From contig CM046295.1 in NCBI GenBank assembly GCA_025267735.1, positions 19,996,938-20,060,937 on the forward strand: a stretch of 64,000 bases of DNA, in the 5' to 3' direction. Below, in pieces: positions 11,906 to 56,647 of the stretch. Origin of the DNA: Mactra quadrangularis. Its lineage: Eukaryota > Mollusca > Bivalvia > Venerida > Mactridae. How positions within the stretch are numbered: position 1 is the first letter of the stretch; the number at the start of each line of letters is the position of its first letter. The translations under genes and the position numbers were made by a program. The notes under the pieces are model-generated. The model had not been told where the DNA came from. It saw nothing but the letters and a program-made list of their open reading frames with translations, and made no database searches.

Positions 11906-14900
11906 CTAGTGACGAGGGATTCGTAATTCTTCATAACCGTCAGGATCAGCTTGATCATTTTCATAGATAGCATTTGCATGTATTCCTGGATCTTTCTTAT
12001 TGTCCTTTGTATGTCTTCTGTAATAGATAAAATAGTCGTTTGTAATTGTATCTATATATTGGACAGGATATATTTATATTTTTAGGTTTATTCATTTCTT
12101 AACTTATAAAGACTCCGAAGTTGCCATAAATGAAGATAAGATGCTTGCAAGGATATAAACAGAAGATTGAATCAATTTTGAAATAAATTCAAATTTAAGA
12201 ATTAAATGAATAAATTATAAAAAATGGCTTACCGTGCCCACACTAACCATATAACATTATTCAAAGCAATAATTATCACAAAGGCAGCAATAATTCCACC
12301 AATTATTTCTCCAGTATAACATGATGGCTGTGGTTCTGTTAACATATTTAATAACATGATTGTAAAATTCTGCGTATTTTTGCCATATAAATTAAACATC
12401 AGAATCCAAAGAATTATATGAACAGAACATAATGTATTACTTTATAACAAATATCAACGTAATTAACATAAGACAATCTTTATATGTAGTGACTCCTCTA
12501 ACATTTTACTCATCATAATGGTATTCCTAACAATGATTTGTTAGACTTTTGGAGACTAAATTCTTATCTTATTGTACTCAAAATGTAACATCCCACATTT
12601 AGAAAATGTCTAAATGATTCGCTCGTGTATTTTTATCATCAATAAGAAACAATGCTTTTTTACACTTGAAATGGAAATTTACCTAGAATGTACGTATAGT
12701 ACATTAAACCGTATTTCAGAATGTTTTCTCTCATTTAAGCGATCAATTATTAAACTCATGTTCAAGAGACTGGGTTTCAAATAAAGACCGAATCTCTAAA
12801 ACTAGACCTAATACCATACATCATAGTTAGTGACTCATAACCGCTCTACTCTATACAGAGTTAAACTGTAGAATGGGCGTATACGTATTTCATGACTAAA
12901 CTTGATGAAGGCTTGAAGGTAGTGCCATGCTATTGAACCAAAGACATTGAGATTCGTAATATAGCGCTCCCAAATGAACTTTACAGGACAGGTCACTTAT
13001 TTAAAGAAAGGAAACAAAGTCTTGCTATAAAATTGCTATACAATGCCAATACTAACCTTCCTCGCAACCATTGATGCATCCTAGTGCACACAACCCAGTT
13101 GTTTGAGAACATGTATTGTTTATACAGTCTTGTCGTTTACATTCTATGTCACATACGTATCCATGGAAACCAGCAATACAATTGTTGCATGCACCATTAT
13201 TTTGACCACACATGTTGTCTTCACAATTAGTAGGACATGTTTCAGTGCACGTCTGACCATAGTACCCCGTTTTACAAGAAATGCAATGTCCAAGTTCACG
13301 GCTACATTCTCCGTTCAAACAATTTTCAGGACAATTGTCTTCACACAGGCTGCCGAAGTATCCAACCTTACAAGAGATACATCGTTTATCTTCTTGAGCA
13401 CATTGACCATTCAAACAAGTCGTTGGACATGGTGTATCGCATTTGTCACCGTAATACTTTATTTCTTTGCAAGCTACACAATTTCCTGTTTCCTTATCGC
13501 ATGCACCAGCACAATTACTGGGACAAGATTCCCCACACGAATCTCCATAGAAACCAGATTTACATTTAGAACATGAGGTTGTCGACTCGCATATCTCACA
13601 ATTATTGTAATAAACACAGCATTTATCTCCAGAGTATCCAGGCCTACATCCTTGTGAACATACAGAAGTATGTCTATCACACACTGAGTTCGTGCAACCA
13701 GTTGAACATGACTTGTCACATAGTTCACCAAACATGCCATTGACGCATTCAATGCATATACCTGTTGATCGATCACAAACACCATTCAGACAATTATAAC
13801 ACTGATTGTTACAGTTTTCTCCGTAATAACCTGGTTTACATTTGTCACACCTCTCTCTCTCGAAGTTACCTTTGCATCCATATGTACATACGCCATCATT
13901 TCTTTGACATGTGTCGTAGTTGCAGTTAACTGGGCAATCTATATCACAGTTGTCACCGTATTTTCCATCTTTACATCGGTCACATTGTGGCCCATCCAGG
14001 TTTTCATCCGCACAAGTGGTACAATCACCATTGCTTTCACATATTCTATCATTACAAATACCAGGACATGGTATATCACAATTGTTACCATACCAAGTAG
14101 TAGCACAAACGTTACATTTATTTCCAATCCAGTTACTACTTGTACAGCCGAGTAAACAACTACCTGTTGATTTGTCACATATGTTCTGCGCACAGTTTGC
14201 TGGACAAGGAGTTGAACAATTGGTTATTCCAGTACCGTTATAGAAACCATCAGCACATAGGTAACATATCTGATAATCTGGGTTCTGGCTAGATCCAAAT
14301 TCACGTGCACATATTGTACAGTACAAAGGACAGAAAATCCAACATCTGCCACTATAATAACCATCCATACATCCATATGTACATCTCCAACCAGATCTTT
14401 GATCCTCACAAATATCCAACAGATCTCTTGTTCCATCAACAGGGTTACTTTTACAACAATCACAAGTTTTCTCTGTCATACAAGCGGGGTATTGAGCAAT
14501 AACAATACCTAAACAAGACAAAACATAAACATAATAAGCTTAAAAACACTAAACTATTATAGCTAAAGCACATAAAAAATGTGTGTTGTTACTGAATTTT
14601 TAGAGGTTATAATCATTATTAAACAGTTATTGTATAATAAAGATTCAGAGTTGAGGTACTAGTATTAATATATATATAAAGTAATAAAAACACTTATATT
14701 TTAGATGCTAACTGCTTTATATTAAGAGAACAAGCACAGAGAATAAAATGGACACTCGTTTTATGTATTGATTTTAGAAATTAAGTATTTAATTCGACCA
14801 CCAACAGATCTTTCCAAGAAAAACCTTTTGACTGAATAAACTAACCTTTCCATTACTTGACGGATAACTCAGCACTGATTGACACTAACCTAATATTCTC

Positions 14901-15199
14901 TATCACATTCACTGTCGCTAAATTATTATCACATGGTAGTTGATGTCAATATTTTATTTATGATAGTTCATTTAGTTTCATTTTTATTGCTTTTACACCG
15001 CTTATGTAAGCTTTCCTGGATTTCAATAATGACACTTTCTGTAGCGCCCGATTAAATCAACGTTTTCGGAAGATGCATTAACTAGAAATTAAAACTTAAA
15101 TCTACACTATATAATAACGTTTTAATTTAAAACAACAAACTATTACTTACCAGAATAAATGTAGCACACACACAACAATACTATTGTTAGCAACATCAT
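11906..15199 (-). CDS. Locus 3: intact multi-EGF type I receptor with hemITAM-like tail
   Basis: The predicted protein has 571 residues. Exons, on the minus strand: 15199-15151 (signal peptide MMLLTIVLLCVCYIYS), 14508-13057 (ectodomain), 12335-12233 (transmembrane), 12017-11906 (tail, TAG). All boundaries are GT-AG and all phases agree. Ectodomain residues about 17-500 begin with a cysteine cap (CMTEKTCDCC) and continue with about 15 EGF/laminin-type repeats of the form C-x-x-C-x(4)-G-[YF]-[YF]-G-x-x-C. They include a module with vicinal cysteines (GDKCCVYYNNCEIC) and the N-glycosylation sites NGT, NCS and NNT. Residues 511-533 form the membrane span (class alpha, with an Asn-Asn pair). The basic tail carries Y553 (YEND) and Y563 (DGYEEL). 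The closest known families are MEGF10/11, Draper, CED-1 and SREC, which are engulfment and scavenger receptors. That role is inferred here. The N-terminal cap is not a recognisable full EMI domain. The 5' half resembles locus 4 and the 3' half locus 9. Confidence 0.9.
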
Positions 15200-18197: not shown

Positions 18198-18400
18198 TAT
18201 TCAACACATATTTTGGCTATATATACGTCGGCCATCTCTTCCCACTATAGGTTTCCTGAACACTTTTCTATCACTAGCAATAACTTACCCTTCCATGAGG
18301 CCGACAACTTTTGTAAAGGGTATGACTTACCGCGACCGGGCTCGAACCCGCGATCTCCGGATTCGAAGTCAGACATGCTAACCACTACGCCACGGCCGCT
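18198..18400 (-). repeat. SINE family B (tRNA-Arg-like head)
   Basis: Read on the minus strand the head is GCGGCCGTGGCGTAGTGGTT and onward, with a GTCTGACTTCGAATC anticodon-arm region and a GGGTTCGAGCC B box. These resemble tRNA-Arg(TCG). The seven-base acceptor arm can pair with CGGTCGC with one G-T pair. A body of about 130 nt follows and is shared with the copy at 25525-25728. The shared body shows it is a SINE and not a tRNA gene. Confidence 0.75.
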
Positions 18401-19997
18401 ATATATATTACTATATATTAACAACATCATATTAAATAACTTTATTATACTTACATGTATAATATACGATTGTTTTGTGTAGGTTAGTAAGTGACATAAA
18501 GTGCAAAATACGATTACATCATCACAATTTTCATTTAGCACAGAAATACTTTGAGTCGTACTCATCAATTTTTTCGAAATTTAAGACGATTATTAAATTA
18601 TTTTGAATATTATTATATTTGCCTGAAAATGTTCAATTTGTACTAAACTATAGATCTACATCAGTTTAATGAAGGACGAGGTCCGGTATTTACATTGGGC
18701 TTGTTCCTAGGTACTAATTGATGCAGACTTTAATATAATGATTAACTTTATAGAATATATTTGTTTTAAGTATTGAACAAAACATAATGCTTTCTCATAG
18801 TTAACTTGAAATCATCATTTTTTAAAGAAATTATACTGACATTAGTAGAATGCACCATTGTATGAAAAACATGAGGTTCCGAAGTGATCTATGTATTGAA
18901 ATTTAAAACAATATAGATAAAGAATAAGCCAATAAACAAACAAACTGGTGATATGTTGATTTGTTAAAGTTGCGACGTTAACAGAGAACATTTTATGATG
19001 TTAAGTCTGAAGAATTGTAATAATGTCTGAACTGCTGCCATTGCAAATTAGTAACATTTTATGTGTTGGCACGGCGTTAAACTCATTATAAAAATCGTCC
19101 ATGGTACATTCCAGTTTTTGTGGAGGTTGACTAATCCATTGCTGCGAAATGGTATATACACTCTTAAGTCAGATGCGTTTTACCTCAATCATATACATCT
19201 TACTTCTCAATATGGAGTTATTGTTTTGAAGGACAAAACGTTGATATTTCTATGATACCTGTGGATATTCAACCGGGGTGGTTATAACCTTGTATGAAAT
19301 TTTACAATAATTTCGACATTCTCCATTATAAGATGTACGGATAATTAACCGGCCTAGTGAAAGGGTGTGTATGCATTCGTTATTGTCATAAATACAGGGA
19401 AATAAGGTTTGATGAGCGGAGCAATTATTTCTTTTGGAGGAAACTAGCAATATTCAGTGAAATGTCTTTGTTTGGACACGGGATTAGACCAAACAATAAT
19501 AAAAGTTTTGTATTATAAGCTCAGTTCAATTTTCTGGATTAGCTCCACATCATTTGCATCATTTTCTCTTTTCTAATTGTAGCGTTTTCCCTACTCAATT
19601 TTTATCGTTTCTCCACCACACTTTGTAATTTTTCTCCTCCCTATGTCTAGCATTAGCTCCTTTGTTTCTGTAGTATTAACTCCACCTGAGTTGTCGCGAT
19701 GTCTACACTCCTTTTGAAATATCAGCTCACAAGGAAACAAGGAAAATAATTAGACATTGTTATCAATACCATCTTTTATATTTTGATATACACTGTGCCT
19801 TGATACTTGAACCATCCTTAAGATACTAAAGATTGTTGACGTACACTTTAATGGCTGCATCCTATTTCCATTGATGTAAGTCCCATGATAATAAATTTGT
19901 CCACTTTAATACTTGTGAATAATGTCCTTGTTTTTAAATTTGTGTAATAAGTATAGGTCAATGTTCTGTATAGGATAGTCAAGGTTAAGCCATGACC

Positions 19998-24140: not shown

Positions 24141-24183
24141 TTAAATATGAGGAAATATAAACAATTAGTGAAAACAAACTTAC

Positions 24184-26330: not shown

Positions 26331-29300
26331 CTAGTGACGCGGAATTTGTAATTCTTCATAACCGTCGTGGTCAGCTTGGTCATTTTCATAGATAGCATTT
26401 GCATGTGTTGTGGAATCCTTCTTAATATCCTTTGTATTTCTTCTGCAAGAAATAAAATAGTCGTTTGTTATTGTATCTATTTATTTGACAGGAATCATTT
26501 TATAAATATATTTAAGTTTTATCATTACTTAGCTATTAAGAATCCGACATAAATAAAATAAGATGCTTGTGAGGATATAAACAACAGTTTGAATCAAATT
26601 TAAAATAAATTCAAATAATATAAATAATTTATGAAAAACAAATAAATGACTTACCGTGTCCACACGAACCATATAACGTTATTTAAGGTAAAAAGGATCA
26701 CGATAGAAGCAATGAATCCACCAATTATTTTTCCAGTATTACATGATGGCTGTAGTTCTGTAAATATATCATTTAGATATGTCATTCTAAGATGCTTCTT
26801 ATTTTCCTTATATAAATTAAAATACAAATATAAATATCTATATAAACATAACAGAACAGAATCAATAACAAAAGCAACTTTATTTAAAAAAACATACGTT
26901 TACATACTGTGATTCGTTTAACGTCTTACTAATTAAAATGGCACACTAAAATAAGAATTGATTGACATTTTGGATACGAAAGTTTTATTTTAATTTTACT
27001 CACAAATGACCCCCGATTTTTATCTAGCTTGTATTAAACGGTGATGTAAATTGTATTTCATTATTTTGTAAAACTGGCAAATAGCACCTACCCTAGTCAG
27101 CGACTGAAAACTGTCCAATTCATACAGAGTTAGGCTGAATAATGGCCGTAAATATTTCAATATATAATACATATACAATGTATATATATATAACATATAT
27201 CAAATATATAATCATATATCTTAGGCGTGAAGGTAATGTCCTAGTATTGAACTCACGGCATTTAGATTCGCAGTACAGCGCTCCCAAATGAGCTTTATTA
27301 GGCAGGCCACTTATATGGAGAAAGGAAACAAAGTATTGTATTAATCTACAAATTGCTATAAAATGCCAATACTAACCTTCGCAACCATTGATGAATCCAA
27401 TAGAACACAAACCAGTGGTTTGAGAACATGTATTGTTTATACAGTCATATCGCTTACAAATCCTGTCACAAACGTCACCATGGAATCCGGCAGTACAGTT
27501 TTGACATATACCATCATATTGACCACATACGTTGTTTAAACAATTAACTGGACATGTTTCATTGCACGTCTGACCGTAATATCCTTCAATACAAGAAACA
27601 CATTGTCCATTTCTACGACCACATTCTCCATTCAAACAGTTTTCAGGACATTTGTCTTCACACTTATAACCAAAGTACTCTTTTTTACAGGAGAAACATC
27701 GTCCATCTTCTTGGAAACATTGATCATCTAGACAACTATCTGGGCAAGGCATTAGACACTGGTCACCAAAGAACTGTTCGTCTATGCAAGCTTTGCAAAT
27801 TCCAGTGTCTTTAGCGCATGCACCAGCACAATTAAAGTGACAATACTTTTCACACGAATTTCCGTAGAAACCTGATTTACATTTAGAACATGAGGTCGTC
27901 GAGTCGCATAACTCACATCTTTGAGAGTAAACACAGCATTTATCTCCAGAGTATCCAGTCCAACATCCTTCCAAACACACAGCAGTATTTCTATCACACT
28001 CTTTGTTTATACATGCAGATGAACAAGACTTGTCACATGGTTCACCAAACTTACCATCCATACAATCAATACATCTGCCTGTTGATCGATCACAAACACC
28101 ATTCAGACAATTATAACACTGATCGTTACAGTTTTCTCCATAATAACCTGGCCTACATTTGTTACATTTAACCCCGGCAAAGTTACCTTTACAGCCACTT
28201 GTACATCTGCCATCATCTCTTTTACATGTGTCGTACATGCAGTTGGACAATCTATATCACAGTTTTCACCGTATGTCTCACCTTTACATTGGTCACATTT
28301 TGGTCCTTCCAGGTTTTCATCCGAACAAGTGTAACAATCACCATTTCTGGCACACATCCTATCTTTGCAAATATCAGGACATCGTACATCACAATTGTTA
28401 CCATACCATGTATCAACACATAGGTTACATTTATCTCCTTTCATATTGCTACCTTTACATCCTTGTAAACAATTACCTGTTGTTCTGTTACATTTGTTCT
28501 CAGCACAATTTGATGGACAAGGAGTTGAGCAATTTGTTATTCCAGTATCGTTATAGTAACCATCAGCACATAGGTAACATATCTGATAATCACTTGGGGT
28601 TTTCGATGACCCAAATTCCTGTGCACATCTTGTACAGTATTCTGGGCAATAATTCCCACATTTCCCTCCATAATAACCTTCTTTACATCCATAGGTACAT
28701 CTCCAACCATATCTTTGATCCTCACAAATTTCCGACAGTTTTCTTGATCCATTATAAGGATTACTATTACAACAATCACAAGTATTCTCGGTCCTACAAG
28801 CGGGGTATTGAGCATTACCTAAATAAGCAACACATAAACATTATAAGCGTATAAACACTAACTACTATAGCTTCAGTACATAACCTATGTGTATGATACA
28901 GAAATATTAGTGGTTATTTTCATTACTTACAATTATTGTAGAATAAAGATTCAGATTTTAGGTACTAGGATTTAAATAAGTCTAAAATAACACAACCACT
29001 CAGATTTTAGATGCTTACAATAATTGTTTATATTGAGAGAAGAAGCATAGAGAATAAAAAAATACACTCGTTTCATGTACTGATTTAAGAAATAAAGTAT
29101 TTAATTCTACCACCGACAGATCTTTCCAAAGAAAACCTTTTGACTGGATAAAATAGCCTTTCTCTAACTTGCCGGATAACTCAGGTTGATTGACACTAAT
29201 CTATTATTATCTACATTCACTGTCGCTAAATTACTATCACATGGTAGTTGATGTAAATATTTTATTTATGATAGTTCATTTAGTTTCATTTTCATCGCTT

Positions 29301-32088: not shown

Positions 32089-34833
32089 CTAGTTTTTTGG
32101 AATTTGTAATTCGTCATAACCGCCAGAGTCAGCTTGGTCGTTTTCATAGATAGAATTAACATGTGTTGGTGGATCTTTCTTTTTTACTTTTGAGTCTCTA
32201 CTGTAATTAACAAAAATAAGTATTTGTCATTGTATTTTTAAAATGCAAATATGTATTTGTTTATAAAAATGACCCTGACAGTACTCTTCAAACAATGCTC
32301 TTAGAAGCAATCTACATAGACTTTGTACATAGATATTTATATTTTATAAACAAAAAGTTCTTCCAATAAAAAGTATATCTATTATACAAGACGCTCACAT
32401 CATATGGTAATGTGTGACTACAGTATTAGATAAGGAATGCGTTTTGATAGGACGAAAAATCTAACTTAGTGACTTACCGTCTCCAGATTAAACATAAAAC
32501 GTGAGACATGATAGTAAAAATGATACTACCAGCAACCATTCCACCAACAATTTCTCCAATGTAACATGATGACTGCAGTTCTGTAAATACAAAGTTTATT
32601 ACTTGTTTTAGATAATAATTACGATAGAGATAATTGTTTCCGTTTGTTTTAATAATAATGCCAAGTTCCACTGCCATTAATGTAGTCTGATATTAAAAGC
32701 ACGACTTCATTTTAGCAAGCGCATTTATTTGGGTTTTTTGTAGATAATAATAAATCACTATGAGCTACGTATGGTGGAGTAAAATTATTATCACATATTT
32801 TTATGTGGTAAATTGCATATTATGCAAGAAAATTTTGATACATCGTTTAAATGAAAAGCAGAAGGTACAAAAATTACAATTATTATTAGAATCATTTTGT
32901 ACTAACTGATGTTACAACTGTTTCCATCTTGACATCCAATCGTGAAATCCCCGGAGTCTTGATTACAGGTTTCGTTGATACAACCACTTGGACACCGGAA
33001 GTCACATGACCTACTGTAGTATCCAACACTACAGTTGTGACATATACCGTCATATTTACCACACAAGTTGTTAAGACAATTATCATGACATGTCTTGTTA
33101 CATAGAATCCAGCATTGAAGGATGTTCATGTTCCGTCTTCTATTGAACACTCCCATTAAGGCAATTTATTGGACATCGTGCGTTGCACTGAATGCCATAG
33201 AACCCGTTTTCACACAAACCACAATGGCCATCTATTTTGTCACATTTTCCATCAAGACAGTTTGTAGGACATGGTGTACTGCATTTGTCACCATAAAACT
33301 TTCCTTCTATACACGACTCATAATTTCCTGTATCTTTGTCGCATATCTCACGACCTTGAGAGGAAACACAGCACCTGTCCCCAGATAAACCAAATAAACG
33401 TCCCTGTAAGCATATTTCAGTGTTTCTATCGCATATAGAGTTCTTGCATCCAGTCGGACAGAATTTGTCGCATAGTTCCCCAAACTTGCCATTGACACAA
33501 TCAATACATCTTCCTGTTGATCGTTCGCAAACATCATTCAAACAATTAGAACAATAAGTGTCGCAGTTGGTTCCGTAATATCCTGGCTTACATATGTCAC
33601 ATCTGTCTCCGTCAAAGTTATCGTTGCATCCATTTGAACAATTGCCACTTGCTCTCTTACACATGTCGTATTTGCAGTTGGTAGGACAATTATTTTCACA
33701 GTTTTCACTGTATTTCCCTGTTATACACTGATCACATTTAGATCCTGTGAAATTATCATCTGCGCAGCCAGTGGTACAATCACCCTTGCTATTACACATT
33801 CTATCTTTACAATTATCAGGACATCGTATATCACAATTGTTACCATACCATGTAGCAGCACACACGTCACATTTGTTTCCAGCCCAGTTATTTATACAAC
33901 CGTGTGAACAAATACCTGTTGTTTGGTCACATTTGTTCACAGCACAGTTTTTAGGACAACTAGTACCACATCTAGTTCCATAGTAGCCATCAACACATGA
34001 GTCACATCTCGCATCACTACCATATTGATGACAACTAATACAAGAAGCAGGACAATAATTCCAACATTTGTTACCCCAATAACCATCTATACATCCATAA
34101 GTACATTTCCAATCTCCTTCTTTATTTTTACAAATATCCGACACATATCTTGTTCCATCATCAGGGTTACTTGTACAACAATCACAACTCAAGTTAGTCT
34201 TGCATGCAGGTACATCCTGAGCAACACCTTAACAAGATAAAAAACATAAGCCTTTTTGACAAAACAATCCTTAAGTAATTAATAATATTTATAAATAGAA
34301 ATTGATAATATCAATATTAAATAAAGTTATTTTTAAATTAACCACAACTTATGGATTTTCAGCAAGCGATGTATTATATGGTGAAACTGATTTTGATCCA
34401 AAATATATCTTTCACACTATCGAAAACACATTCCTTTGACTCTTTTGATTTTAGACTTACATTTTACATTGTATTTTTTCGGTTTGCAGAGAGTTTATGT
34501 AGCTACTTATCTTTATTTTAGTAATATTAAAACTTGCATACTGCCATCAAAAAATGTATGTCAAAATGAAAATGCTAGCACGTTAAATTGTACGTGCTGG
34601 TAATTTGTATCGTTCCATTATTGTCTTCTCAATATAAGCACGTCTTAAAACACTCTCTAGACCAACAAGGTACCCTTGCCAATCGAGAAAACAGGTTAGA
34701 CCAGCACCAAACTGATATAAGCACCAATCCGGACTCTTCCCTAATATCAAGTTTAGAAATCAAAGAAATAAAATTAAAATTTACCGTTGTAAATTCCAAA
34801 AACAATCAAGATACACCATGCTAGAAACAACAT
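32089..34833 (-). pseudogene. Locus 5: multi-EGF receptor pseudogene
   Basis: Exons on the minus strand: 34833-34785 (signal MLFLAWCILIVFGIYN), 34227-32907 (ectodomain), 32580-32478 (transmembrane, class beta, LCLIWRR), 32200-32089 (tail, IYENDQADSGGYDEL). The frame is open from the cap to about 33150 and then fails. Compared with loci 2 and 8 there is a one-base loss at GGGAGTGTTC, then a TGT to TGA stop in the restored frame, and then a loss of about ten bases at TTCTATGTAAC. Three repeat cysteines are already replaced upstream (QGRLFG, QGREIC, GNYESC, where locus 6 has Cys). The N-terminal repeats are of type II (CISCHQYGSDARCDSC), like locus 9. The tail is one of the two divergent ones, with GGYDEL in place of DGYEEL. 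Confidence 0.85.
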
Positions 34834-38827: not shown

Positions 38828-41800
38828 ATGCTTTGGAATACATTGTTCGTTATGATGGTGTGTTGTGTATCAAAAGGTCAGTGTCTTATTTTAAACCTTT
38901 TTATAAGCTTGACTATTTCTTGAATGATTTTCCAACAAAGGGTTAGAAGACAACATTAACGTTTCCATAGTTAATTCATTTTACAAAAAAACCTACTGGT
39001 CGCATAAGGTTTGAATGCCAAAAAACAACCAAGCACCAAATATGTTTGGATTTTTGTTTCAATGAACATATCAGGTTCCGCAAACATGTATTCAATACAG
39101 CTTCACTTGTCGTTTTATGAATGAACGGTTTATATAGAAAGCCATCTATAATAAGGTTTTGTTCATTTAGTCATAGTTAACATGTCACACGACAGTGTAT
39201 TTGTATTGATGCTTTCCTGGTACGTCTTCAAAATTGATTTTGATTATGTATTTTTGAGATAATATTTTCATTAATTTGAAAACTGATACATACATTGCTT
39301 AAATGTTAAATTTGCGTTTCTAGTATAATAATAACGATAACCAATATTGAAAACCCTGATTATAATTATGATCCGACTGATGAAAAAAGGGCAAGAGACG
39401 TAACAATAAAAACTAAAACATAATTTGACCTGGACTCACTAAGCTTCTAGATTTAACTACTTATGGCTCAAACTTAAAATTGGCTAATTGAATCATTTCT
39501 GAACGCGGTTGTATACATTTACTGTACGTTTACCTCTAAATAGTTCATCTACGATTGAAATAATTAACACATAGCTTCATATAGAATATAAAAAATAGGA
39601 ACATAACTCAGTGATAAAGGAAGACTTAAAACAAACATTCAAATGGCAGGTGTTTTTTTTCTACTTCAGGTATTATTCAAGATGTTACTGCTTGTAGGAC
39701 CGAGAATACTTGTGATTGTTGTAAAAGTAATCCTGATGGAACAAGAGATCTGTGGGATATTTGTAATAATAAACAAGTAACAGAAGATAAAACTTGGAGA
39801 TGTAAATATGGATGTATAGATGGCTATTGGGGCAATAAATGTTGGAATTTCTGTCCTGAATATTGTTCTGTATGTTCACAAGATTTTGGTCATGCTAGTA
39901 TACCAAATGGTGATCAGATATGTTACCTGTGTGCTGAAGGCTACTATAACGGCACTGGAATAACAAATTGTTCAACTCCTTGTCCAGCAAACTGTGCTGA
40001 GAATCAATGTGACAAAACAACTGGTAATTGTTTACAAGGTTGTATAAACAACTGGGTTGGAGATAAATGTAACGTTTGTGCTGATACATGGCAAGGTAAC
40101 AAATGTAATGTACAATGTCCTGATATTTGCAAAGATAGACTATGTGATAGCAATGGTGACTGTACTACTGGTTGTGCTGATGATAACTTCACAGGATCGA
40201 AATGTAATCAATGTGTTGTAGGAAAATATGGCGACTACTGCGATATGACTTGCTCTGCTCATTGCAAAGACGGTACATGTGACAGACTTGATGGCCATTG
40301 TACTGATGGATGCAGAGGTAACTTTGACGGCGATAAATGTGACAAATGTCAGCCAGATTATTACGGGACAAATTGTGACAATCAGTGTTTTAATTGCCTT
40401 AATGGTAAATGTGATCTGTCAACAGGTAGATGTCTGGACTGTGTCAATGGCAAGTTTGGTGAACTATGTGACAAGTCATGCCCAACTGGATGCAATAACT
40501 TCATTTGTGATAGAAGCACTGCAACATGCCTGCATGGATGTTTATTAGGCTTATCTGGAGATAAGTGTTGTGTTTTCTCCCAAGGTTGTGATACCTGCCA
40601 AACAGATACAGGTAATTGCGAGTCGTGCAAAGAAGGAAATTTTTATGGTGACAAATGCGACTTACGATGTCCGTCAAGCTGTCTAAGTGAAAAATGTTCA
40701 AAAGAAGACGGAACATGCATATTCTGTAAAGCTGGATACTATGGTCATACATGTAACATGACATGCCCTAATAAGTGTCTCAACAACGTGTGTGGTCAAT
40801 ATGATGGTATATGTCACAATTGTAGTGTTGGATACTACAGAAGGTCATGTGACTACAAATGTCCAAGTGTTTGTGTCGACGATGCCTGCAATCAAATCTC
40901 CGGGGATTGCACGTATGGATGTACGAATGGATGCCAGAAAGAAAACAACGACAAAAACGGTAAGTAAGTAATATATTTGTTTTCCGTTATAACAAAATAT
41001 TGATATTTAAAAAGTAAAATAAATATTCAACCATAGAATATAAAGATGTATACTATAGAACGTACAACAAGGTGCATGCAATACCAATTTTACTATCGCG
41101 GTGAAAGTTACCTCCATAGTACATCTTTATCTAGATGCGATCAACCTCAAATCGTATATTATTACTTAATTTAAGTTGTAAATAATATATTTACAGAATC
41201 ACAGACGTCGAGTGATATCCGAATAATTGTTGGAGGAGTGATTGCTGGTTTTATATTTGGAATTATATTGACTATCGTTTTAAGTTTCATCTGGAGACGG
41301 TTTGTTACTTTTGTTAAACTTCTCTAACATAAACTGAAATCTTACCCGGCTAGCCCCGTTGGTAGCAGGAAAGTCTACTGATCGAGGGCGGGGCATTTTT
41401 TCGTGGAGCTTGGTCATGAAATTATTTCTACGGCCATTCTACTTTCGACCAATGATTTGTTATTATGTAGGGCAGTTGTCAGTCACTGACAAAAGTATGC
41501 GCTTAGTTGTTGTTAAACAGCGTAATCCATAGATCAAGCCTTGCCATGAGGAGTCAGTATGTTGACTTACCGCCATTTTAAGACCTATATAATGTGTTGA
41601 TACGGCGTTAAAAGCCAACAAAAATAAACAAATCGTATAAAGAGAGAGATCTTCGACGAAGTTCTCCTTAGTTTGATAAATGTACGAAAAACTCTTATAC
41701 TACAATAACAAATACATGTTTTATTTCTTTACAGACGACAGACGAAGGAAAACAAGAAAGATCCTGCAAGCTATGTTAATGCTATGTATGAAAATGACAA

Positions 41801-41840
41801 AGCTGATGGTTATGAAGAATTACAAATTCCAAATCACTAG
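38828..41840 (+). CDS. Locus 6: intact multi-EGF type I receptor
   Basis: The predicted protein has 515 residues. Exons: 38828-38876 (signal MLWNTLFVMMVCCVSK, donor GTCAGT), 39670-40959 (ectodomain), 41197-41299 (transmembrane, class beta, donor GTTTGT), 41735-41840 (tail, TAG). A TTTTTCAG acceptor precedes the signal exon. The ectodomain frame is open throughout with no in-frame start codon for its first 190 codons, so it must be spliced to the signal exon. It starts with the TCDCC cap and type I repeats (YNGTGITNC). It has a shorter vicinal-cysteine module than locus 3 (GDKCCVFSQGCDTC). The tail lacks the two residues DP, so it reads Y499-ENDKADG-Y507-EEL and the tyrosines are eight apart instead of ten. 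Intron 3 carries a SINE. The first likely polyadenylation signal is AATAAA at 41986. The role is inferred as phagocytic or scavenger receptor. Confidence 0.9.
41343..41630 (+). repeat. SINE family A inside intron 3 of locus 6
   Basis: The head is CCCGGCTAGCCCCGTTGGTA, the body GGGCAGTTGTCAGTCACTGA and the end TGTTGATACGGCGTTAAAAG. It lies between the transmembrane and tail exons and does not touch a splice site. Confidence 0.8.
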
Positions 41841-44408: not shown

Positions 44409-45167
44409 AGGAACAATTTTATGGTGAAAAATGCGATACACCATGTCCAAATAATTGTTTAGATGATCAATGTGCACAACAAAGTGAACATCGTATAAAT
44501 TGTAAGGTTGGTTACTATAGCAACATATGTGAAAACGAATGTCCAGAAAAAAGAATGACCAATGAAAGTTTACCAAATTCCAATTTAGCTAAAAAGCTTT
44601 ATACGCATTTTCATTGATTGAACGGGTATACATTACCTTTTATGGTATGATCATACTAGAGACGAATGCAACCTCGTATGACGTCATATATAGCGTGGCT
44701 ACAATTTGTATTTAAGTTCAATAAGTTGCTCTATGTTTACAGTTAAAAGATCAGCATCTATTTTTAAAAAAATCACGTGACAGACATGCGATTTGAATGT
44801 TTATGTGTCTCTGTCTAAAAATAGAAAAATCAGTTTGTACGTAGTATTTTAGCAGAGGAAGAAAGTGAGCGAGTGAATCTTTCGAACCGATGAATTGGAA
44901 AGTATCAGTGAATATAATCGATTTCCGTCCCAAAATTGACCATTAATCTCTGATATTATGTCATTGTCAGCTGAATATACCAATATATTACAAAAATACA
45001 AAATTATAAAAAATGAAGACAAGCATACAAACAATAGCTTTTTTATGTATTACAGAAGAAAGATTATAGAAACGAAGAACAATCCAACAATTCAAGTTAA
45101 TTTTGTCTATGAAAATGACAAAGCTGACCCCAATGGTTATGAAGAATTACAAATTCCTAATCACTAG
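44409..45167 (+). pseudogene. Locus 7: fragment of a multi-EGF receptor gene
   Basis: Two pieces remain. About 44409-44550 encodes one and a half repeats (QFYGEKCDTPCPNNC) most like the corresponding part of locus 4. The tail exon 45056-45167 is complete (VYENDKADPNGYEEL, TAG) and keeps its TATTACAG acceptor. There is no signal exon, no cap, no other repeats and no transmembrane exon between the pieces. The tail and 3' flank resemble those of locus 1. The tail could not be joined in frame to a secreted ectodomain here, so this is a remnant. Confidence 0.85.
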
Positions 45168-47439: not shown

Positions 47440-49975
47440 ATGATGTTTCTAACATTGGTCGTATTTGGTTTGATTTTTATTAACCATAGTAAGTTTATGA
47501 TATAAAACCATTACATACTGTGACATAGAAGTGTGTTTAATTTGCCTATAGATATTAAGTTGTAAGCCAGTAGTGAGAAGGAATCTAGAAAATTAATTGT
47601 CATTAAAGCCTTTAAATTAATAATAGGTTTTAGTCGCCTTGTCATAATAATTATGAACGACTATGAGTTAAACTTCATTTTATAAATACTGTACACGAAC
47701 TTATATTAAAGAGTTCAGTTCTGTATTTCATGTTTATTCTATTGACTCATAGTATAGACCGTATAAAACAGCACAAGTTACTAGACTTGTGCATGTCATA
47801 TTACTTCCATAAAGCGATAATACTTAGTCTGAGATACTGTCTGAATTTAAAAATTTACAAACACCACCATGTATATGCAATGAGAGCAATATAGAATGAC
47901 GTTTTTATAACAGTACATTGTCATTGAGTCGTCATGTGATTATAAGGGTTGTATAGTTAAATTAAACTCTACCCAAAGGCAGTTTTGTAAACTTTTATGT
48001 ACTCTATCTATAGAAATTGATGTTTGATAAACTTAGAATATTTATGTTTTTATTATCTTGTTCAGGTATTGCGCAAGATATTCCTGCTTGCAGGACAGAG
48101 AAAACTTGTGATTGTTGTAATAGTAATCCTGATGATGGAACAAGAGAACTGGTGGATATTTGTAAGGATAAAGTTTATGATTGGAAATGTAAATATGGAT
48201 GTAGAGATGGTTATTGGGGTTACAAATGTTGGAACGCTTGCCCTATATACTGTATAAGATGTGCTCGATATTTTAACTTTCTGAGCAATCAAGATTATCA
48301 GAAATGTTACCTGTGTGCTGATGGTTACTTTAACGGTACTGGAATAACAAATTGTTCAACTCCTTGTCCAGCAAACTGTGTTGAGAACCTTTGTAACAAA
48401 ACAACAGGTAATTGTTTAAAAGGATGTACAAACAACTGGAGTGGAGATAAATGTGACTTTTGTGCAATTCCTTGGTATGGTGACAATTGTAATATGTCAT
48501 GTCCTGATTATTGTAGAAACAGAATGTGTGACAGCAGTGGTGAATGTTCCACTGGATGTGCTGATGAAAACTTCATAGGCTTGAAATGTAATCAATGTGT
48601 TGTAGGGAAATATGGCGACTTCTGTGATAACACTTGCTCTGTACATTGCAAAGAGGTAACATGTGAAAGACTTGATGGTCAATGTACAGATGGATGCAGA
48701 GGTAACTTTGACGGGGCTAAATGTGACAAATGTCGGCCGGGTTATTACGGGACAAATTGTGACAAATGGTGTTACAGTTGTTTAAATGGTTTTTGTGATC
48801 GGACGACAGGAAGATGTATTGACTGTGTAAATGGCAAATTTGAAGAACAATGTGACAAGTCATGCTCAACAGGTTGTGTTAACGGAGAATGTTCCAGAGA
48901 AAACGGAGCATGTACATCCTGCAGAATGGGATACTATGGCCAGACATGTAACAAGACATGCCCTGATAATTGTCTAAACAACATGTGTGGACAATATGAT
49001 GGTATTTGTCACAATTGTAGTGTTGGATACTACGGCAGGTCATGTGACTACAAATGTCCAAGTGTTTGTATCAACGATACATGTAATCAAGGCTCTGGCG
49101 ATTGCACGTTTGGCTGTACCAATGGTTGCCAGAATAAAGACAATGATGAAAACGGTAAAAATGGTTAGTTAAACATGTATTTATGTTCTAACACGATATT
49201 GATACTTAATAATTAAAGATAATGTGTATCAATTGTATATAATGAAGTATATAATGGAACATGAACTAAGTAAATGCATTTGCACATTTTACTCCATAAT
49301 TAATAAGTGTCGGTGTTTTCGTAACATCCTTCATAATGCTATGTATCTAAGTTAACGCTCGTTCTAAAAAGATATGGTTTGTTTTCAGATATAGTATTAC
49401 AGTTGGGCTCTTGTGGTAATATTCTAGTCGGTATTTTGATTATCTAACTTGAGTCAATCTATGGCATAGGTTAACTTGTGTTACTTAAATAATATATTTA
49501 CAGAACCACAGACGTCAAGTTATACTGGAGAAATTATTGGTGGAATTATTGCTGCTGTTGTGATACTTTTTACTTTGAATAACGTTATATGGTTCATGTG
49601 GACACGGTAAGTCATCTTGTTTAATGTCTATAAATTTAGTTTTACCGCATGGTTTAGACATTTCTTTTATTTAGAGAGTGAACTTATTCTATATAAGTAA
49701 ACATCTTAATTGCCATAATACTTCGATGAATATTCAAACAATATATTATGTATACATGTATATAGAAGGCGGCGAGGAGCACACTGTGTTGTCTTAGCAA
49801 TTTGTATAAACAAGTGAAATATACATTTTAAAAATACAATGTCATTATCCTTTTTTATTGCAGAAGAAAGACAATGGAAATCAAGAAGAATCCATCAATG
49901 CATGTTAATGCCATGTATGAAAATGACAAAGCTGACCCTGATGGTTATGAAGAATTACAAATTCCTAATCAATAG
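47440..49975 (+). CDS. Locus 8: intact short-class multi-EGF type I receptor
   Basis: The predicted protein has 450 residues. Exons: 47440-47488 (signal MMFLTLVVFGLIFINH, donor GTAAGT), 48066-49154 (ectodomain), 49504-49606 (transmembrane, class alpha, NNVIWFMWTR), 49864-49975 (tail, TAG). All phases agree. An alternative in-frame ATG at 48020, after CTATCTATAG, would give its own signal-like start MFDKLRIFMFLLSCSG, as in locus 1. The ectodomain has the TCDCC cap and type I repeats with the YNGTGITNC glycosylation pair. It goes from EQCDKSCSTGC directly to the last repeats, so it has no vicinal-cysteine module. The tail has Y432 (YEND) and Y442 (DPDGYEEL). AATAAA occurs at 50160. The ectodomain is closest to locus 1, but the transmembrane exon is not. 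Confidence 0.9.
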
Positions 49976-50924
49976 ATGCCAATATACACAACATGTACAT
50001 TTTTCTTTTACCAGATTTTGTACCGCGGAATAACAATTTAGTCGTTTTTATGTGAGTAGAGCTGACCTTTGGAGGCTGAAAATCGACTCATGTTTGCCTG
50101 ACTCGATAACAATCGTCGTGTTCTGGCACAAAGACTCTGCACAAATGTTTATGAAACGGAATAAATAATTATAATGACTTGTTTAATAATTATGATTCAT
50201 AAATTTGACGTATTTGGCTTTTTTTAAGAATAAATTACAACCTATAGTAACATACTTGTTTATCGTCTTTAAATGACACAGTTTGAATGTTTATTTTGTA
50301 ACTTATTATGTAAATATGAACAACCTTTTCTGAATTATGTATGTGTCGTTTGTATGTCTAAAATAGATTTTACTGTATATTCACCAAAGAAAAATAAGTT
50401 TCATTTAGAGACATACATTATTATTGAATACTGTATCTACTCTGTTTATTGTATAATTCATATCATTATGCATTGTCTTCCCGAGTTAAGTGGACTGTCC
50501 TATTTGTTTGTTATTAACATAATATCCGCATAATTACCCTTAGCGTTTTTGTTTATTTAGATTCAATACACAAGTCAAAAGTTTACTAAAACTCTTCTGA
50601 ATACACGTACAACAAGTTAATGGTATGCTATTCTACATAGACACTGTAACCATAACATTCTTTAAATAGTGGATTTTTATTCAAAAATTACAATGCAAAA
50701 TAAATTTTAATTCATATGGTGATATTTTATTGTACTCTTGCCTTTTGTAGAGCTTGTGTTCAAAGTTTCATATTTCAATAAAAGATACATTGATAAAGTT
50801 TTTAAATTCCAGATTGTTACATTCTATAGATTCAAAATAAAAGAAATGAAAAAAATCACATCATTCACTTGATTCACATTTTCCTGTTTTAGTTCGTTTG
50901 TACTTAGTGTTGAATTGTTCTCAC

Positions 50925-51463
50925 ATATAGAATAGCCAGTTTGATTTTAGTACTAGTGATAGAATGTTAACACTTGAAATGGATTAAGCTGACTTGTAAG
51001 TGACTTTTCATCGATCGAAGTATCTTAACTTTGCATGCTAAAGTATGAGCAAAAAAAATATTTTAGCCGCTCGATCACATGTTTCAACTTGATATAAACT
51101 TTTCTAAAAAAATACACCGTAAAGACACAATTTGGATGCAGCAAAGTAATGCTTTGATAGTAACAATTTATAGTGCATACTGCTTTGCTTGTAGCTATAA
51201 AAGACTTAAAATACGGTTTATATTATTTGTATTTTTTTCTAGTGAGATTTATTATTATAATAGGGGATTGTAATTACAGAATATGTGTTTATTTTACTTA
51301 TTTTATTGTATATTACGTAAATTGTATATAAAAATTGTGCCATTTTGCGCATATATACACAGAAACTGGAATGATTTTGTAAGATTATAGATGAATTGTC
51401 ACGAGATAATAAAGATAACGTGGCTAACATTGGCTCTGTTGATTGTGTTCTACATTGACTGTG
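50925..51463 (+). pseudogene. Relic of a family gene: non-coding exon and signal exon (block B)
   Basis: 50925-50993 matches the non-coding exon of locus 3 (GAATAGCCAGTTTGAT, then ATGGATTAAGCTGACTT with a GTAAGT donor). 51415-51463 is a full 49-nt signal exon with a GTAAGA donor in the family phase, but the start codon reads ATA. No ectodomain follows. The first-block copy at 9682 keeps the ATG but has lost 4 nt, so the two relics decayed independently. Confidence 0.6.
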
Positions 51464-52151
51464 GTAAGAGAACATATTTGTGAAAGCTTTCACAATGCAT
51501 TGACATATGTTCGACGTAATGAACCTTTATCTTTCATTTTCAAGTGTATGTCACTCCCGTAAAGCCTTATTCGACTAAATGTCTTACGTTTATCGTGTCG
51601 ATAGATTTTAATTATTAACAAGAAAATACAAGACAATACAATGCAATGCAATGCAAAATACTATCAATATAACTCATTAGTAAAATTTTATCTAATAAAA
51701 AAGTCCTTATATAAATAACTCCTCAAATATAACCCTGAACGAATATGTAAATGCTGGTTCTACCCAATCAAATTTCTTCTATACTTCTTATATATTATAA
51801 CAGTGGTGATTCAATGAACAAAAAAGACTTAAAACGTTCCTTTTAGACATGAAAAGTTTTATAAACAATTCAAACAAACAAATGCAAGTGCATGTAATAT
51901 GTGCTTGAAATATACTTCACTCTGTGTCATAAAATTTTATCTAAGATATGCAAAAATATTCAAAATGTTGAAGTGGAAAAACACATAGGCTGGATCTGTT
52001 TTGAACAAAATAATGCCGAGCCCAAACACTAGGTATACATTTTCACTGGAATTGTAACCCGAGTGTGGCAAAATGACTCTAGTGTGTATTCCACATTTTA
52101 TCGCGAGTGAACAAGGGCATGACGTAAAATGACTGAAAATGGTATTGTTTG

Positions 52152-52412
52152 TTTGTTTGTTTGGTTTAACGCCGTAGCAACACTTTGTATATGTCATATA
52201 ACGGTGTTCAGTGAACCTACTCACTCCTCTTGGAAAGGCTTAATCTCTGGATTTAGCTGTTAACCAACTACAAAGCGCATGTTTGGTAGGAGGGAGCATG
52301 GTCGTTGAAATAATTTCATGAACAAGCTCCACGAAAGAATGCCCACCCAGGAATCAAACCAACATCCCATCGATCAGTAGATTTGCGTGCTACCAACGGA
52401 GCTAGCCGGGCA
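52152..52412 (-). repeat. SINE family A (block B copy)
   Basis: This is the duplicate of 10495-10799. It lacks about 40 nt of the body (the segment with CAGTGACTGACAACTGCC), so AAAGCGCATG joins directly to TTTGGTAGG. Confidence 0.8.
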
Positions 52413-52432
52413 AGGAGAAAAGAATAAAAATT

Positions 52433-52565
52433 ATTGGTAGGAGGGAGAACGGCCGTAGAAATAATTTTATGACCAATATTCACGAAAGTATGCACCGCCC
52501 GGGAATCAAACTTACGACCCATCGATCAGTACACTTGTGTGCTACTTACTGAGCTAGCCGGGCGG
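52433..52565 (-). repeat. SINE family A partial (block B copy)
   Basis: This is the duplicate of 10820-10953, with the same truncation and the same neighbour. Confidence 0.75.
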
Positions 52566-53518
52566 CACTGTAAATAGTAAAAACAGTTGTAGAAACCAGA
52601 ATAGACGGGTATGTTGTGTAATTTCACTGTTTTTACCATTAAATTAGCGCATTTAATTATATAATTTTATCAATATCTGTTATGAAGCAATCTATGTATG
52701 TTTCAGCGCATTTTCTCGCGTTTAATGCATTACTGTCAAACAGTACGAGTACGGCGTCCTTTGAATAACTAAGAACGCTATTCTCGTTGTTAGTCTTCAC
52801 TTAATAATGCGACTCTAACGCGCATGCCCAGAAGGTCATGCGGATGCCTTAATTCGACCCTAGAGATATGAAGATTAATACGTACAGAAGGTCAAACATA
52901 TTTTATTTTATATAGAATTAAAAAGAATAGTTTTTGTTTAGAAATTGTTAAAGGTACTAGTTCACAGATTCGGATAAAGATTTTTCTATATATTAAAAGT
53001 ACCATTAAGTGTCTGTAATTGTATTAAAAATATCTTAATATTTTAGGAAAAAACCTGACTTGCAAGAAATATACAATTAAAGTCACAACGTGACATACGG
53101 AGTAGATTTTTACCTCTAGAAACACAATCATTTGTAGCTGTATGTCAATTTGCACTACAAATGTCATTATCAAATCACTAATTGCCTTCTTAAAATGTTT
53201 CCGAACAATTTTGATAGTTTAAAAAAGTCGACGTTTAATTTGAAATCTGTGAATGAATACCGTTAATATCAACACATATCTATTGAAATATGAAATAAGA
53301 GAAGGAATTAAAAAATTAAAATATAATTGTCCTCATATATATAATATATTTTCGTTACAATAAGCAAGGTATGTTGGTCAACATAAAGAAAATTTCCACC
53401 GATTATGTACAGTTTATCATGTCTATGAAGAAGGATACTTGAGAAATGGTTTACAAAACAATATCTATAGAAGTTATGTCCAAATGAAGAGAACAATTTT
53501 ATTTCCATCTATTGACAT

Positions 53519-56500
53519 CTAGTGACGAGGGATTCGTAATTCTTCATAACCGTCAGGATCAGCTTGATCATTTTCATAGATAGCATTTGCATGTATTCCT
53601 GGATCTTTCTTATTATCCTTTGTATGTCTTCTGTAATAAATAAAATAGTCGTTTGTAATTGTACCTATATATTTGACAGGATATGTTTTTTGATTTTCAG
53701 ATTAATTATTTTCTCAATTTAATAAGATCCCCGTCGTTGCCATGAATGAAGATAAGATGCTTGCAAAGTTATTAACAAAATTTGAATCAATCTTGAAATA
53801 ATTAAAATTTTATAAATATATGATTTAATAATGAAAACAAAAAATGGCTTACCGTGTCCACACTAACCATATAACATTATTCAAAGCAATAATTAACACA
53901 AAGGCAGCAATAATTCCACCAATTATTTCTCCAGTATTACATGACGTCTGTGGTTCTGTAAAAATATATAATAACATGATTGTAAAATTCTGCGTATTTT
54001 TGCCATATAGATTAAACATCAAAATCTAAAGAATCATATGAACAGAACATAATGTATTACTTTATAACAAATATCAACGTAATTAACATAAGGCAATCTT
54101 TATATGTAGTGACTCCTCTAACATATTATTTATCATAATGGTATTCCTAACAATGATTTGTTAGACTTTTGGAGACTAAATTCTTATCTTATTGTACTCA
54201 AAATGTAACATCCCACATTTAGAAAATGTCTAAATGATTCGCTCGTGTATTTTTATCATCAATAAGAAACAATTCTTTTTTACACTTGAAATGGAAATTT
54301 ACCTAGAATGTACGTATAGAACTTTAAACGGAGTTTCATAATGTTTTCAATCATTTAACCGATCAATTATTATACTCATGCTCAAGAGACATGACTTCAA
54401 CAGCAGACCGAATCTCTAAAACTAGACATAATACCATATATCATAGTCAGTGACTGATAGCCGCTCTACTCTATACAGAGTTAAACTGTAGAATAGGCGT
54501 ATACATATTTCATGACAAAACTACATGAAGGCTCGAAGGTAGTGCCAAGCTATTGAACCAAAGACATTGAGATTCATAATATAGCGGTCCCAAATGAACT
54601 TTACAGGACAGGTCACTTATTTAAAGAAAGGAAACAAAGTCTTGCTATAAAATTGCTATACAATGCCATACTAACCTTCCTCGCAACCATTGATGCATCC
54701 AAGTGCACACAACCCAGTGGTTTGTGAACATGTATTGTTTATACAGTCTTGTCGTTTACATTCGATGTCACATACGTATCCATGGAAACCAGCAATACAA
54801 TTGTTGCATGCACCATTATTTTGACCACATATGTTGTCTTCACAATTAGTAGGACATGTTTTAGTGCACGTCTGACCAAAGTACCCCGTTTTACAAGAAA
54901 TGCAATGTCCAAGTTCACGGCTACATTCTCCGTCCAAACAATTTTCAGGACATTTGTCTTCACACAGGCTGCCGAAGAAAGCAACCTTACAAGACATGCA
55001 TCGTCCATCTTCTTGGGCACATTGGCCTTTCAAACAAGTCGTTGGACATGGTGTATCGCATTTGTCACCGTAATACTTTATTTCTTTGCAAGCTACACAA
55101 TTTCCTGTTTCCTTATCGCATGCACCAGCACAATTACTGGGACAAGATTCCCCACACGAATCTCCATAGAAACCAGATTTACATTTAGAACATGAGGTTG
55201 TCGACTCGCATATCTCACAATTATTGTAATAAACACAGCATTTATCTCCAGAGTATCCAGGCCTACATCCTTGTGAACATACAGAAGTATGTCTATCACA
55301 CACTGAGTTCTTGCAACCAGTTGAACATGACTTGTCACATAGTTCACCAAACTTGCCATTTACGCATTCAATACATCTACCGGTTAATCGATCACAAACA
55401 CCATTCAGACAATTATAACACTGATTGTCACAGATTTCTCCGTAATAGTTTGCCTTACAGTTGTCACATCTGTCACCGGCAATGTTACCATCGCATCCAT
55501 TTGTACATATGCCATTAACTATTTCACATGTGCCGTGCTTGCAGTTAACTGGACAATCTTTATCACAGTTGTCACCGTATTTTCCATCTTTACATCTGTC
55601 ACATTGTGGTCCATCCAGGTTATCATTAGCACAAGTGGTACAATCACCATTGCTGTCACAAATTTTATCTTTACAATAATCAGGACAAATGTCACATTTA
55701 TCTCCACTCCAGTTGCCAGTACAATCTTGTAAACAATTACCTGTTGTTTGGTTACATTTACTCTCGGCACAGTTTGTAGGACAATTTAATGAACAATTTA
55801 ATCCATAGTACCCATCATGGCATGAGTAACAAACTATAGGATTTAGTCGTTGACAACTTATACAAGTAGTATGACAATAAGCCCAACATTTCAAATCCAT
55901 ATAACCATCTAAACATCCATATGTACATGCCCAACCATATCTTTGATTACTACAAATATCTTCGACATCTCTTGTTCCATTATCAGGATTACTTTTACAA
56001 CAATCACAATTTCTCTCGGTCATGCAAGCAGGTGCATCTTGAGCAACACCTGAAAAAGATAATAAAACATAAATATTCTAAGCTTAACAAACATCAAATT
56101 TCTACAGACGAAGGATATAAGTTTATTTCAATTCTAAAAAAGATAAAGTCACATTATGACTCAACGAAAAAGTAATTCTATATTGTTCTAATTGCATATA
56201 ATTGTATTTTATTTCTAAGTACAATCAATATTAACACTTACTTAAAGTAATACGATATGCGTGAGTCGGAATTCGTTTTATGTCTTTACTGTAAGTCCTT
56301 AAGAAAAAAACAGAACCGAACTCTCAAAATATATATGTTCATCACAGTATTTATGAAAAGAAGGTTAACTTATAGTCGATACATGTATGACATGGCGACT
56401 GAAAATCTGCATTATAATATTCATTGTTTTTATGACTTCTAACTATAAATTACATATCGACCTCATGCCGTTAATGAGCAAAAGTTCAATTTGCTGTACA

Positions 56501-56647
56501 TTTTTGTAAGTACTGATTGCCTTTCACTAGGAGCTTACAAATAAGTAGTCTCTGACAGACTTTACACAATTTTATGCAATTTTATAATCTAAACTTACCA
56601 TGATTAATACTGTACATTACAAAAACAAACAGTGTTAGAAACATCAT
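53519..56647 (-). CDS. Locus 9: intact long-class multi-EGF type I receptor
   Basis: The predicted protein has 545 residues. Exons on the minus strand: 56647-56599 (signal MMFLTLFVFVMYSINH, donor GTAAGT), 56049-54676 (ectodomain), 53955-53853 (transmembrane, class alpha, NNVIWLVWTR), 53630-53519 (tail, TAG). All phases agree and all introns are GT-AG. The N-terminal half has the cap (CMTERNCDCC) and type II repeats (CISCQRLNPIVCYSC), unlike locus 3. From about 55410 to the end it is nearly identical to locus 3, including the module GDKCCVYYNNCEIC. It lacks one half-repeat after DICPDYC relative to locus 3. The tail has Y527 (YEND) and Y537 (DPDGYEEL). An acceptor CTTATTTCAG lies upstream of the signal exon. 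Its promoter may be at 60740, beyond a transposon. The role is inferred as phagocytic or scavenger receptor. Confidence 0.9.

Follow-up and report, generated by a model that had tools for sequence, protein, structure and literature searches.

Among receptors built of repeats resembling epidermal growth factor (EGF), a signalling precedent is provided by Draper, for which a path through Src42A and Shark is described (PMC4503800), and by MEGF10, which is linked to Syk, with CED-1 described as carrying one YxxL motif plus NPxY (PMC8092387). In oyster, CgCLec-TM1 and CgCLec-HTM are reported as receptors with a hemi-immunoreceptor tyrosine-based activation motif (hemITAM) that act through Syk and ERK, inducing IL-17 (PMC13027682, PMC12842671). 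Invertebrates are reported to have Syk-like kinases and SHARK (PMC10253181), and a Syk of oyster, CgSyk, is described (PMC12842671). Here we describe a stretch of 64,000 nucleotides of the bivalve Mactra quadrangularis (assembly GCA_025267735.1, contig CM046295.1, positions 19,996,938 to 20,060,937; hereafter the window) that holds ten EGF-repeat receptor loci, L1 to L10, whose short cytoplasmic tails all carry two conserved tyrosine motifs, the distal one of which is, to judge by its residues, probably hemITAM-like.

The window was scanned in all six reading frames, and EGF-repeat blocks and tail exons were placed by tblastn, which found ten of each, paired one to one. The forward strand carries L1, L2, L6, L7 and L8, with tail exons at 6161..6272 (YENDKTDPDGYEELQISNH), 8622..8733 (YENDKADQDGYEELQIPNQ), 41735..41840 (YENDKADGYEELQIPNH), 45056..45167 (YENDKADPNGYEELQIPNH) and 49864..49975 (YENDKADPDGYEELQIPNQ); the reverse strand carries L3, L4, L5, L9 and L10, with tail exons at 11906..12017 (YENDQADPDGYEELRIPRH), 26331..26442 (YENDQADHDGYEELQIPRH), 32089..32200 (YENDQADSGGYDELQIPKN), 53519..53630 (again YENDQADPDGYEELRIPRH) and 62062..62173 (YINDNAEIEGYEELQITHH). 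Each translation runs to a stop codon, through the end of which the exon measures 106 or 112 nt, for a tail of about 36 residues. All ten tails end in GY[DE]EL, five further residues and the stop. The six-frame count of GY[DE]EL over the window is itself ten, all in tail exons and all within ten residues of a stop, against a chance expectation of 0.07 on average and 1 at most in 60 first-order Markov sequences. Seven tails have the strict form DGYEEL (L1, L2, L3, L4, L6, L8 and L9), and the others read NGYEEL (L7), GGYDEL (L5) and EGYEEL (L10). Upstream of the distal tyrosine a second conserved tyrosine motif, Y-x-N-D, is present in every tail; the spacing of the two tyrosines is ten residues except in L6, whose tail is two codons shorter, in frame, and where the spacing is eight. 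Residues N16, Y19, N21, D22, G28, Y29, E31, L32 and I34 are invariant, as are an arginine at the splice end and one lysine, giving a consensus of proximal N-x-x-Y-x-N-D and distal G-Y-[E/D]-E-L-x-I. Because the loci are paralogues, the ten copies do not amount to ten independent observations.

The loci share a four-exon plan: a signal-peptide-like exon 1, a large EGF-repeat exon, a membrane exon and the tail exon. From the ectodomain exon through the membrane exon to the tail stop the frame is open in four of the ten loci, whose models have GT-AG exon borders and a single open frame. These are L3 (reverse strand; ectodomain exon 13057..14508, membrane exon 12233..12335), L6 (forward; 39670..40959 and 41197..41299), L8 (forward; 48066..49163 and 49504..49606) and L9 (reverse; 54676..56049 and 53853..53955); all exons are open in L3, L8 and L9, and L6 is open from the ectodomain onward. 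Exon 1, a hydrophobic signal-peptide-like stretch ending in a GT donor, was located in L3 (15151..15199, reverse, with its start codon and the stretch MMLLTIVLLCVCYIYS), L4 (29459..29507, reverse), L8 (47440..47488, forward) and L9 (56599..56647, reverse), each time with the donor GTAAGT. The search for this exon covered L1 to L6, L8 and L9; L5 has a candidate only, and nothing convincing was found for L1, L2 and L6. The membrane exon is 103 nt long in L1, L3, L4, L5, L6, L8 and L9; that of L10 is related and has a different 5' border. We note that the donor of the L6 membrane exon, at 41300, is the non-consensus GTTTGT, and that reading through it would give a short tail with neither tyrosine motif.

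The six other loci are broken, partial or cut in the window. A single frame break interrupts the ectodomain of L1 (near 5063), L4 (near 28240) and L5 (a break or stop near 33140-33150), and these breaks may be either real or assembly errors. L2 has lost its 5' part, its ectodomain frame is interrupted, and the 22 nt missing from its membrane exon (81 nt instead of 103) shift its tail, by comparison with L8, into another frame. At L7 the ectodomain is reduced to a short fragment, 44381-44563, and pattern and hydrophobicity scans found no membrane exon; L10 has two in-frame stops within its EGF repeats, and its ectodomain is cut where the gene runs off the window. An earlier interpretation, made from the letters alone (the sequence-only reading), had held that every receptor here carries the motif, which is true of ten tail exons out of ten and of an unbroken frame only in L3, L6, L8 and L9. 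Its nine translated tails ending in GY[ED]EL become ten with the ending intact, and its statement that most read DGYEEL is borne out. The span it gave to the observation, 11906-56647, from the L3 stop to the L9 start codon, omits three tails that fit, those of L1, L2 and L10, and its one-motif tail missed the conserved tyrosine site lying ten residues upstream, or eight in L6.

With six of ten loci not intact, the cluster might be largely decaying, its motif kept uniform by recent duplication and homogenisation and not by use, an explanation that we consider very unlikely. Over all 45 pairs of loci the tail exons have a mean identity of 0.78, against 0.42 in 110 nt of upstream intron, 0.44 in 120 nt downstream and a shuffled baseline of 0.33 (30 shuffles), and they stand far above the flanks even in pairs whose flanks sit near that baseline. 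The ratio of nonsynonymous to synonymous change (dN/dS) across the ten tails is below 1, at 0.39 over alignment columns 2-37, 0.57 over columns 2-13 and 0.25 over columns 14-34, the half that contains the motif; in the four open loci it is 0.28 for the whole tail and 0.16 for the motif half, and in the six others 0.46 and 0.31. That the ratio is lower in the motif half than in the membrane-proximal part was supported at 0.96 by bootstrap, in an alignment whose first column takes in intron bases; this column spans the splice acceptor in this bootstrap alignment and in the six-codon scan described below, and whole-tail dN/dS was recomputed from column 2. That four loci are open, and that Mactra antiquata carries the same tail type, likewise argue against decay as a sufficient account.

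Copying between loci has nonetheless left its mark. A segmental duplication places 8602-14068, from the L2 tail to the middle of L3, again at 49844-55687, from the L8 tail to the middle of L9; its main pieces are 86-89% identical below 10.6 kb, and the longest, 10667-14068, is 94% identical. Within this block L2 has decayed and its counterpart L8 is open. L3 itself looks like a mosaic: its 3' part is 94% identical to L9, and above about 14.07 kb its long match is L4 (14068-15711 against 28400-30050, including a stretch of 300 nt around exon 1 that is 94% identical), a pattern that points to exchange among the loci by recombination or gene conversion. The duplicated block and the mosaic together indicate that copying between loci makes the distal motif look more uniform than it otherwise would, and since the six non-intact loci keep the motif, part of the similarity must be recent shared ancestry. 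In the scan of six-codon stretches, moreover, the GYEELQ codons have the lowest proportion of synonymous differences of any (pS 0.06, against 0.36 for the whole tail), so that homogenisation at the DNA level is inseparable there from selection on the protein. Behind this scarcity of synonymous change could lie gene conversion, or else a signal carried by the DNA itself, for example a splicing enhancer, GAAGAA being a sequence of that kind.

The ectodomains are cysteine-rich repeats whose laminin-EGF matches in Pfam are weak and below the curated cut-off. For L8 and L9 a search with a limit of E 1, in which the HMMER filters discard most of what scores worse than about 0.1, lists no EMI domain, and there is none at E up to 0.1 in the M. 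antiquata proteins P0001, P0002 and P0005. Weak matches among solved structures are to 6u11, an 'EGF-like domain-containing protein' (E 4e-5), and to the scavenger receptor SCARF1 (8hna, E 0.005). An AlphaFold model of the ectodomain had a mean predicted local distance difference test score (pLDDT) of 33 and was set aside. A protein search with the ectodomain gave 24 matches, of which all 18 named ones are from molluscs, led by five M. antiquata genes and continuing with proteins named MEGF10/11, draper-like or SCARF1-like, and others. The locus is best read as EGF-repeat receptors of a bivalve arranged in tandem, single-pass, of type I and of the SCARF/MEGF kind; the family is not filed as Draper/CED-1/MEGF10 because neither an EMI domain nor a canonical NPxY was found in the window genes. 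Mollusc MEGF10 or multiple-EGF-like genes are mentioned as genes in PMC12021676 and PMC9334734, and we do not claim an expansion of such genes in molluscs as unpublished.

The relatives in M. antiquata, a member of the order Venerida, are ACF0H5_024038, 024039, 024040, 024041, 024098 and 024099, one of the six having been added by profile search, with ectodomains 46-56% identical to L8 in five cases and 40% in 024039. Two of the six have a tail of the window type. The tail of 024040 (P0002) reads VNPTYGND...TGYEDLQI, contains NPTY, and matches all ten window tails at E 7e-8 to 1e-3; that of 024099 (P0005), VYENENEAYDDLHI, has the distal motif EAYDDLHI, with alanine before the tyrosine, lacks NPxY, and matches L8 (0.005) and L7 (0.01) only, weakly. 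The tails of 024038, 024039, 024041 and 024098 read NYMTP, NYMKP or NYVTP followed by YENP or YDNP. A search of the window with two of these YENP/YDNP-type tails brought up no exon related to them: the best match, at E 0.16, was an unrelated one, and the L3 and L9 tails aligned weakly at E 3. We note that M. antiquata genes of one ectodomain family, neighbours to judge by their consecutive locus tags, have either YENP/YDNP tails (P0001, P0003, P0004 and P0025) or YxxLxI tails (P0002 and P0005); the P0004 tail as recorded starts ahead of the true membrane span, and the motif counts are unaffected. YxN is present in all six M. antiquata tails, and YxxL in two.

More widely, 42 relatives were recovered from databases, 26 of them with a predicted membrane span, and among the tails of these 26 YxN occurs in 18, Yxx[LI] in 15 and GYxx[LI] in 2. 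Neither DGYxxL nor [DE]GYxx[LI] occurs in any of the 26, a sample limited by the search tool and the gene models, and a search with the tail alone gave five candidates, none of them at E 10. The acidic-D-G context is therefore not conserved outside the window cluster; what is kept is the proximal YxN and, in the window tail type, the distal YxxLxI. A tree of 12 rows (four window loci, with the other six left out, six M. antiquata genes and two outgroups) is mostly unresolved, with seven of nine inner branches open and both outgroups long. The window loci come out together in 80% of bootstrap trees, on a branch with support 16/58, and the M. antiquata YxxL group and YENP group are each present in 100%. 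The switching of tail motifs between neighbouring M. antiquata genes is the more unusual lead. One EGF ectodomain kind joined to alternative tails, YxND plus a putatively activating GYxxL or YENP/YDNP without YxxL, might represent a lineage-expanded paired-receptor system in clams of this group, a suggestion that we hold as doubtful; its logic would be comparable to that of natural killer (NK) cell receptors or the Botryllus fester co-receptors (FcoRs), with EGF repeats as its building blocks.

Two further relatives, P0026 (Mya arenaria) and P0029 (Saccostrea cucullata), are EGF-repeat receptors of related family with a cytoplasmic protein-tyrosine-phosphatase domain, PF00102, listed; that of P0026 was confirmed at E 8e-55. 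Elsewhere in the window, an open reading frame at 18245-18580 reads RGVVVSMSDFESGDRGFEPGRG, which we take to resemble a translated tRNA-derived short interspersed nuclear element (SINE).

The class of the distal site was examined in 12 tails, the ten of the window and the two M. antiquata tails of matching type. YxxL, as in hemITAM receptors, is present in all 12, and glycine directly precedes the tyrosine in ten of ten window tails and one of the two others. Contiguous triacidic residues before the tyrosine, of the DEDG or EEEI kind, are absent from all ten window tails, in which acidic residues at positions -7 to -1 number three in eight tails and two in the other two; [DE]GYxxL is found in eight window tails and neither M. 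antiquata tail. A single tyrosine signalling site is described for hemITAM tails (PMC8882614), and each window tail has one YxxL plus the second invariant tyrosine, in YxND. Two other classes were rejected. The immunoreceptor tyrosine-based activation motif (ITAM), YxxL/I-x(6-12)-YxxL/I, occurs in none of the 12, the proximal +3 residue being aspartate in all ten window tails and the L6 spacing eight, and the corresponding inhibitory motif (ITIM), [VILS]xYxx[LIV], also occurs in none, which upholds the sequence-only reading on this point for all ten window tails. Its hemITAM-like label survives in YxxL and the glycine, and falls short in the absent triacidic stretch, arguably in the presence of two tyrosines, and in an acidic-D-G context that is missing from the M. 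antiquata pair and from the 26 relatives, where the DGYxxL it proposed to look for in mollusc EGF-repeat receptors was not found within the limits of search tool and gene models given above. Because that context is not conserved beyond the window cluster, 'hemITAM-like YxxL' is the most fitting name for the distal site.

The same residues fit a sorting signal, and (G)YXXPhi sorting and SH2-adaptor docking are both serious rivals. Under the former, GY[ED]EL would be read unphosphorylated by AP-2 or AP-3, and the receptor, as one of scavenger type, would travel with its cargo to endosomes and lysosomes with no role for Syk, which we regard as possible if unlikely. Glycine, tyrosine, two residues and a bulky hydrophobic one form the sorting consensus in ten of ten window tails, always with acidic residues between tyrosine and leucine, and in one of the two M. 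antiquata tails; the lysosomal signals GYEVM (CD63), GYQTI (LAMP1) and GYDQL (cystinosin, bound by AP-3) are described with this pattern (PMC5297682). The weak ectodomain match to SCARF1 points the same way, as does a glycine invariant in ten of ten where the aspartate at -2 is kept in only seven. We had considered the glycine as a means of deciding for sorting and discarded it, since activating hemITAM receptors are reported to keep it too (PMC12669754), and in P0005 it is replaced by alanine. Sorting alone, furthermore, leaves the conserved isoleucine at +5 and the proximal YxND unexplained; AP-2/AP-3 sorting and docking could also take place on the same tail.

Docking of adaptors without Syk would assign the proximal YxN to a Grb2-type SH2 domain and the distal YEEL to a Src-family SH2 domain, in line with the binding preferences of these domains, YEEL being near pYEEI. 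YxN is the most widely kept motif of the tail, being found in ten of ten window tails and six of six in M. antiquata (P0001-P0005 and P0025), even in the four YENP/YDNP tails without YxxL, and in 18 of the 26 membrane-span relatives against 15 for Yxx[LI]. Y[DE][DE]LxI, in contrast, is present in all 12 tails of the window type, a count to be read knowing that the M. antiquata pair was partly chosen by that motif, and this distal constancy counts against the adaptor explanation, which we hold as unlikely. The phosphorylated tail of a true hemITAM receptor, DNGR-1, is reported to pull down GRB2 and LYN (PMC12669754), so that the two kinds of docking overlap and do not exclude each other.

The reading that we favor, with slightly less than even confidence, is that these are SCARF/MEGF-type receptors with a compact two-site tyrosine docking tail whose distal site may act in hemITAM-like fashion through Syk or Shark. 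The exons, the four open frames, a tail better conserved than the sequence on either side of it and its counterpart in M. antiquata are observed; that the tail is phosphorylated and docks a kinase, and in which cells, for which ligand and with what output, is what we infer. A ligand would cluster the receptors, a Src-family kinase would phosphorylate the tail tyrosines, and the distal YxxL motifs of adjacent receptors would dock the tandem SH2 domains of Syk or Shark. The proximal tyrosine, in NxxYxN, would recruit a PTB adaptor of the CED-6/GULP type or an SH2 adaptor of the Grb2 type for uptake, as the known preferences of such adaptors for sites of this kind would allow. Several observations weigh against this reading: six of the ten loci are not intact and keep the motif all the same, the GYEELQ codons have hardly changed even at synonymous sites, GYxxL fits a sorting signal as well, four of the six M. 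antiquata family members have no YxxL, and both of those with the window tail type lack the acidic context. If Syk or Shark does bind at the distal site, hemITAM-like signalling in bivalves would extend beyond lectins to scavenger-type receptors with EGF repeats, and the compact tail would be a minimal natural version of the two-motif design of Draper and CED-1. The M. antiquata genes with swapped tail motifs make the question of activating versus other function testable within one family.

Invertebrate hemITAM receptors, in oyster and Botryllus, and EGF-repeat receptors that act on Syk-family kinases are already known, and the novelty attached by the sequence-only reading to their combination was overstated, given that oyster hemITAM-Syk receptors are reported and that Draper and MEGF10 are described as joining EGF repeats to Shark and Syk. 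Going by their published description, the oyster proteins CgCLec-TM1 and CgCLec-HTM resemble the window receptors in being membrane receptors of a bivalve whose tail is of the hemITAM type, and differ in having a C-type lectin ectodomain in place of EGF repeats. The vertebrate receptors Dectin-1, DNGR-1 and CLEC-2 share the single YxxL and, in activating members, the glycine before the tyrosine (PMC12669754), whereas their ectodomains are lectin-like, contiguous acidic residues are reported before the tyrosine of Dectin-1 (DEDG) and DNGR-1 (EEEI, AEEI in mouse; PMC12669754, PMC11624271), and the second, upstream tyrosine is a feature of the window tails. The fester co-receptors of Botryllus are likewise a clustered invertebrate family, with tails described as hemITAM, ITIM or core YxxPhi, but they have Ig/sushi ectodomains and sit in an allorecognition locus (PMC12065747); Hydractinia candidate genes with the same motif classes are mentioned in that Botryllus review. 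Closest in sequence are the M. antiquata genes, which have the same ectodomain family and, in 024040 and 024099, the same tail type, and which differ from the window's DGYEEL in reading TGYEDL and EAYDDL or, in four members, YENP/YDNP without YxxL. Draper, CED-1 and MEGF10 share with the window receptors a single-pass form with multiple EGF-like repeats and a membrane span, and their tails are described as pairing NPxY with YxxL or an ITAM, with a Src-family kinase leading to Shark or Syk for Draper and MEGF10 (PMC4503800, PMC8092387). The window genes differ in having no EMI domain detected by Pfam, a tail of only some 36 residues, and a proximal NxxY (with asparagine at -3 in ten of ten tails) in place of NPxY, which occurs in none of the ten. 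By analogy, the receptors described here may nevertheless work, in outline, as Draper, CED-1 and MEGF10 do.

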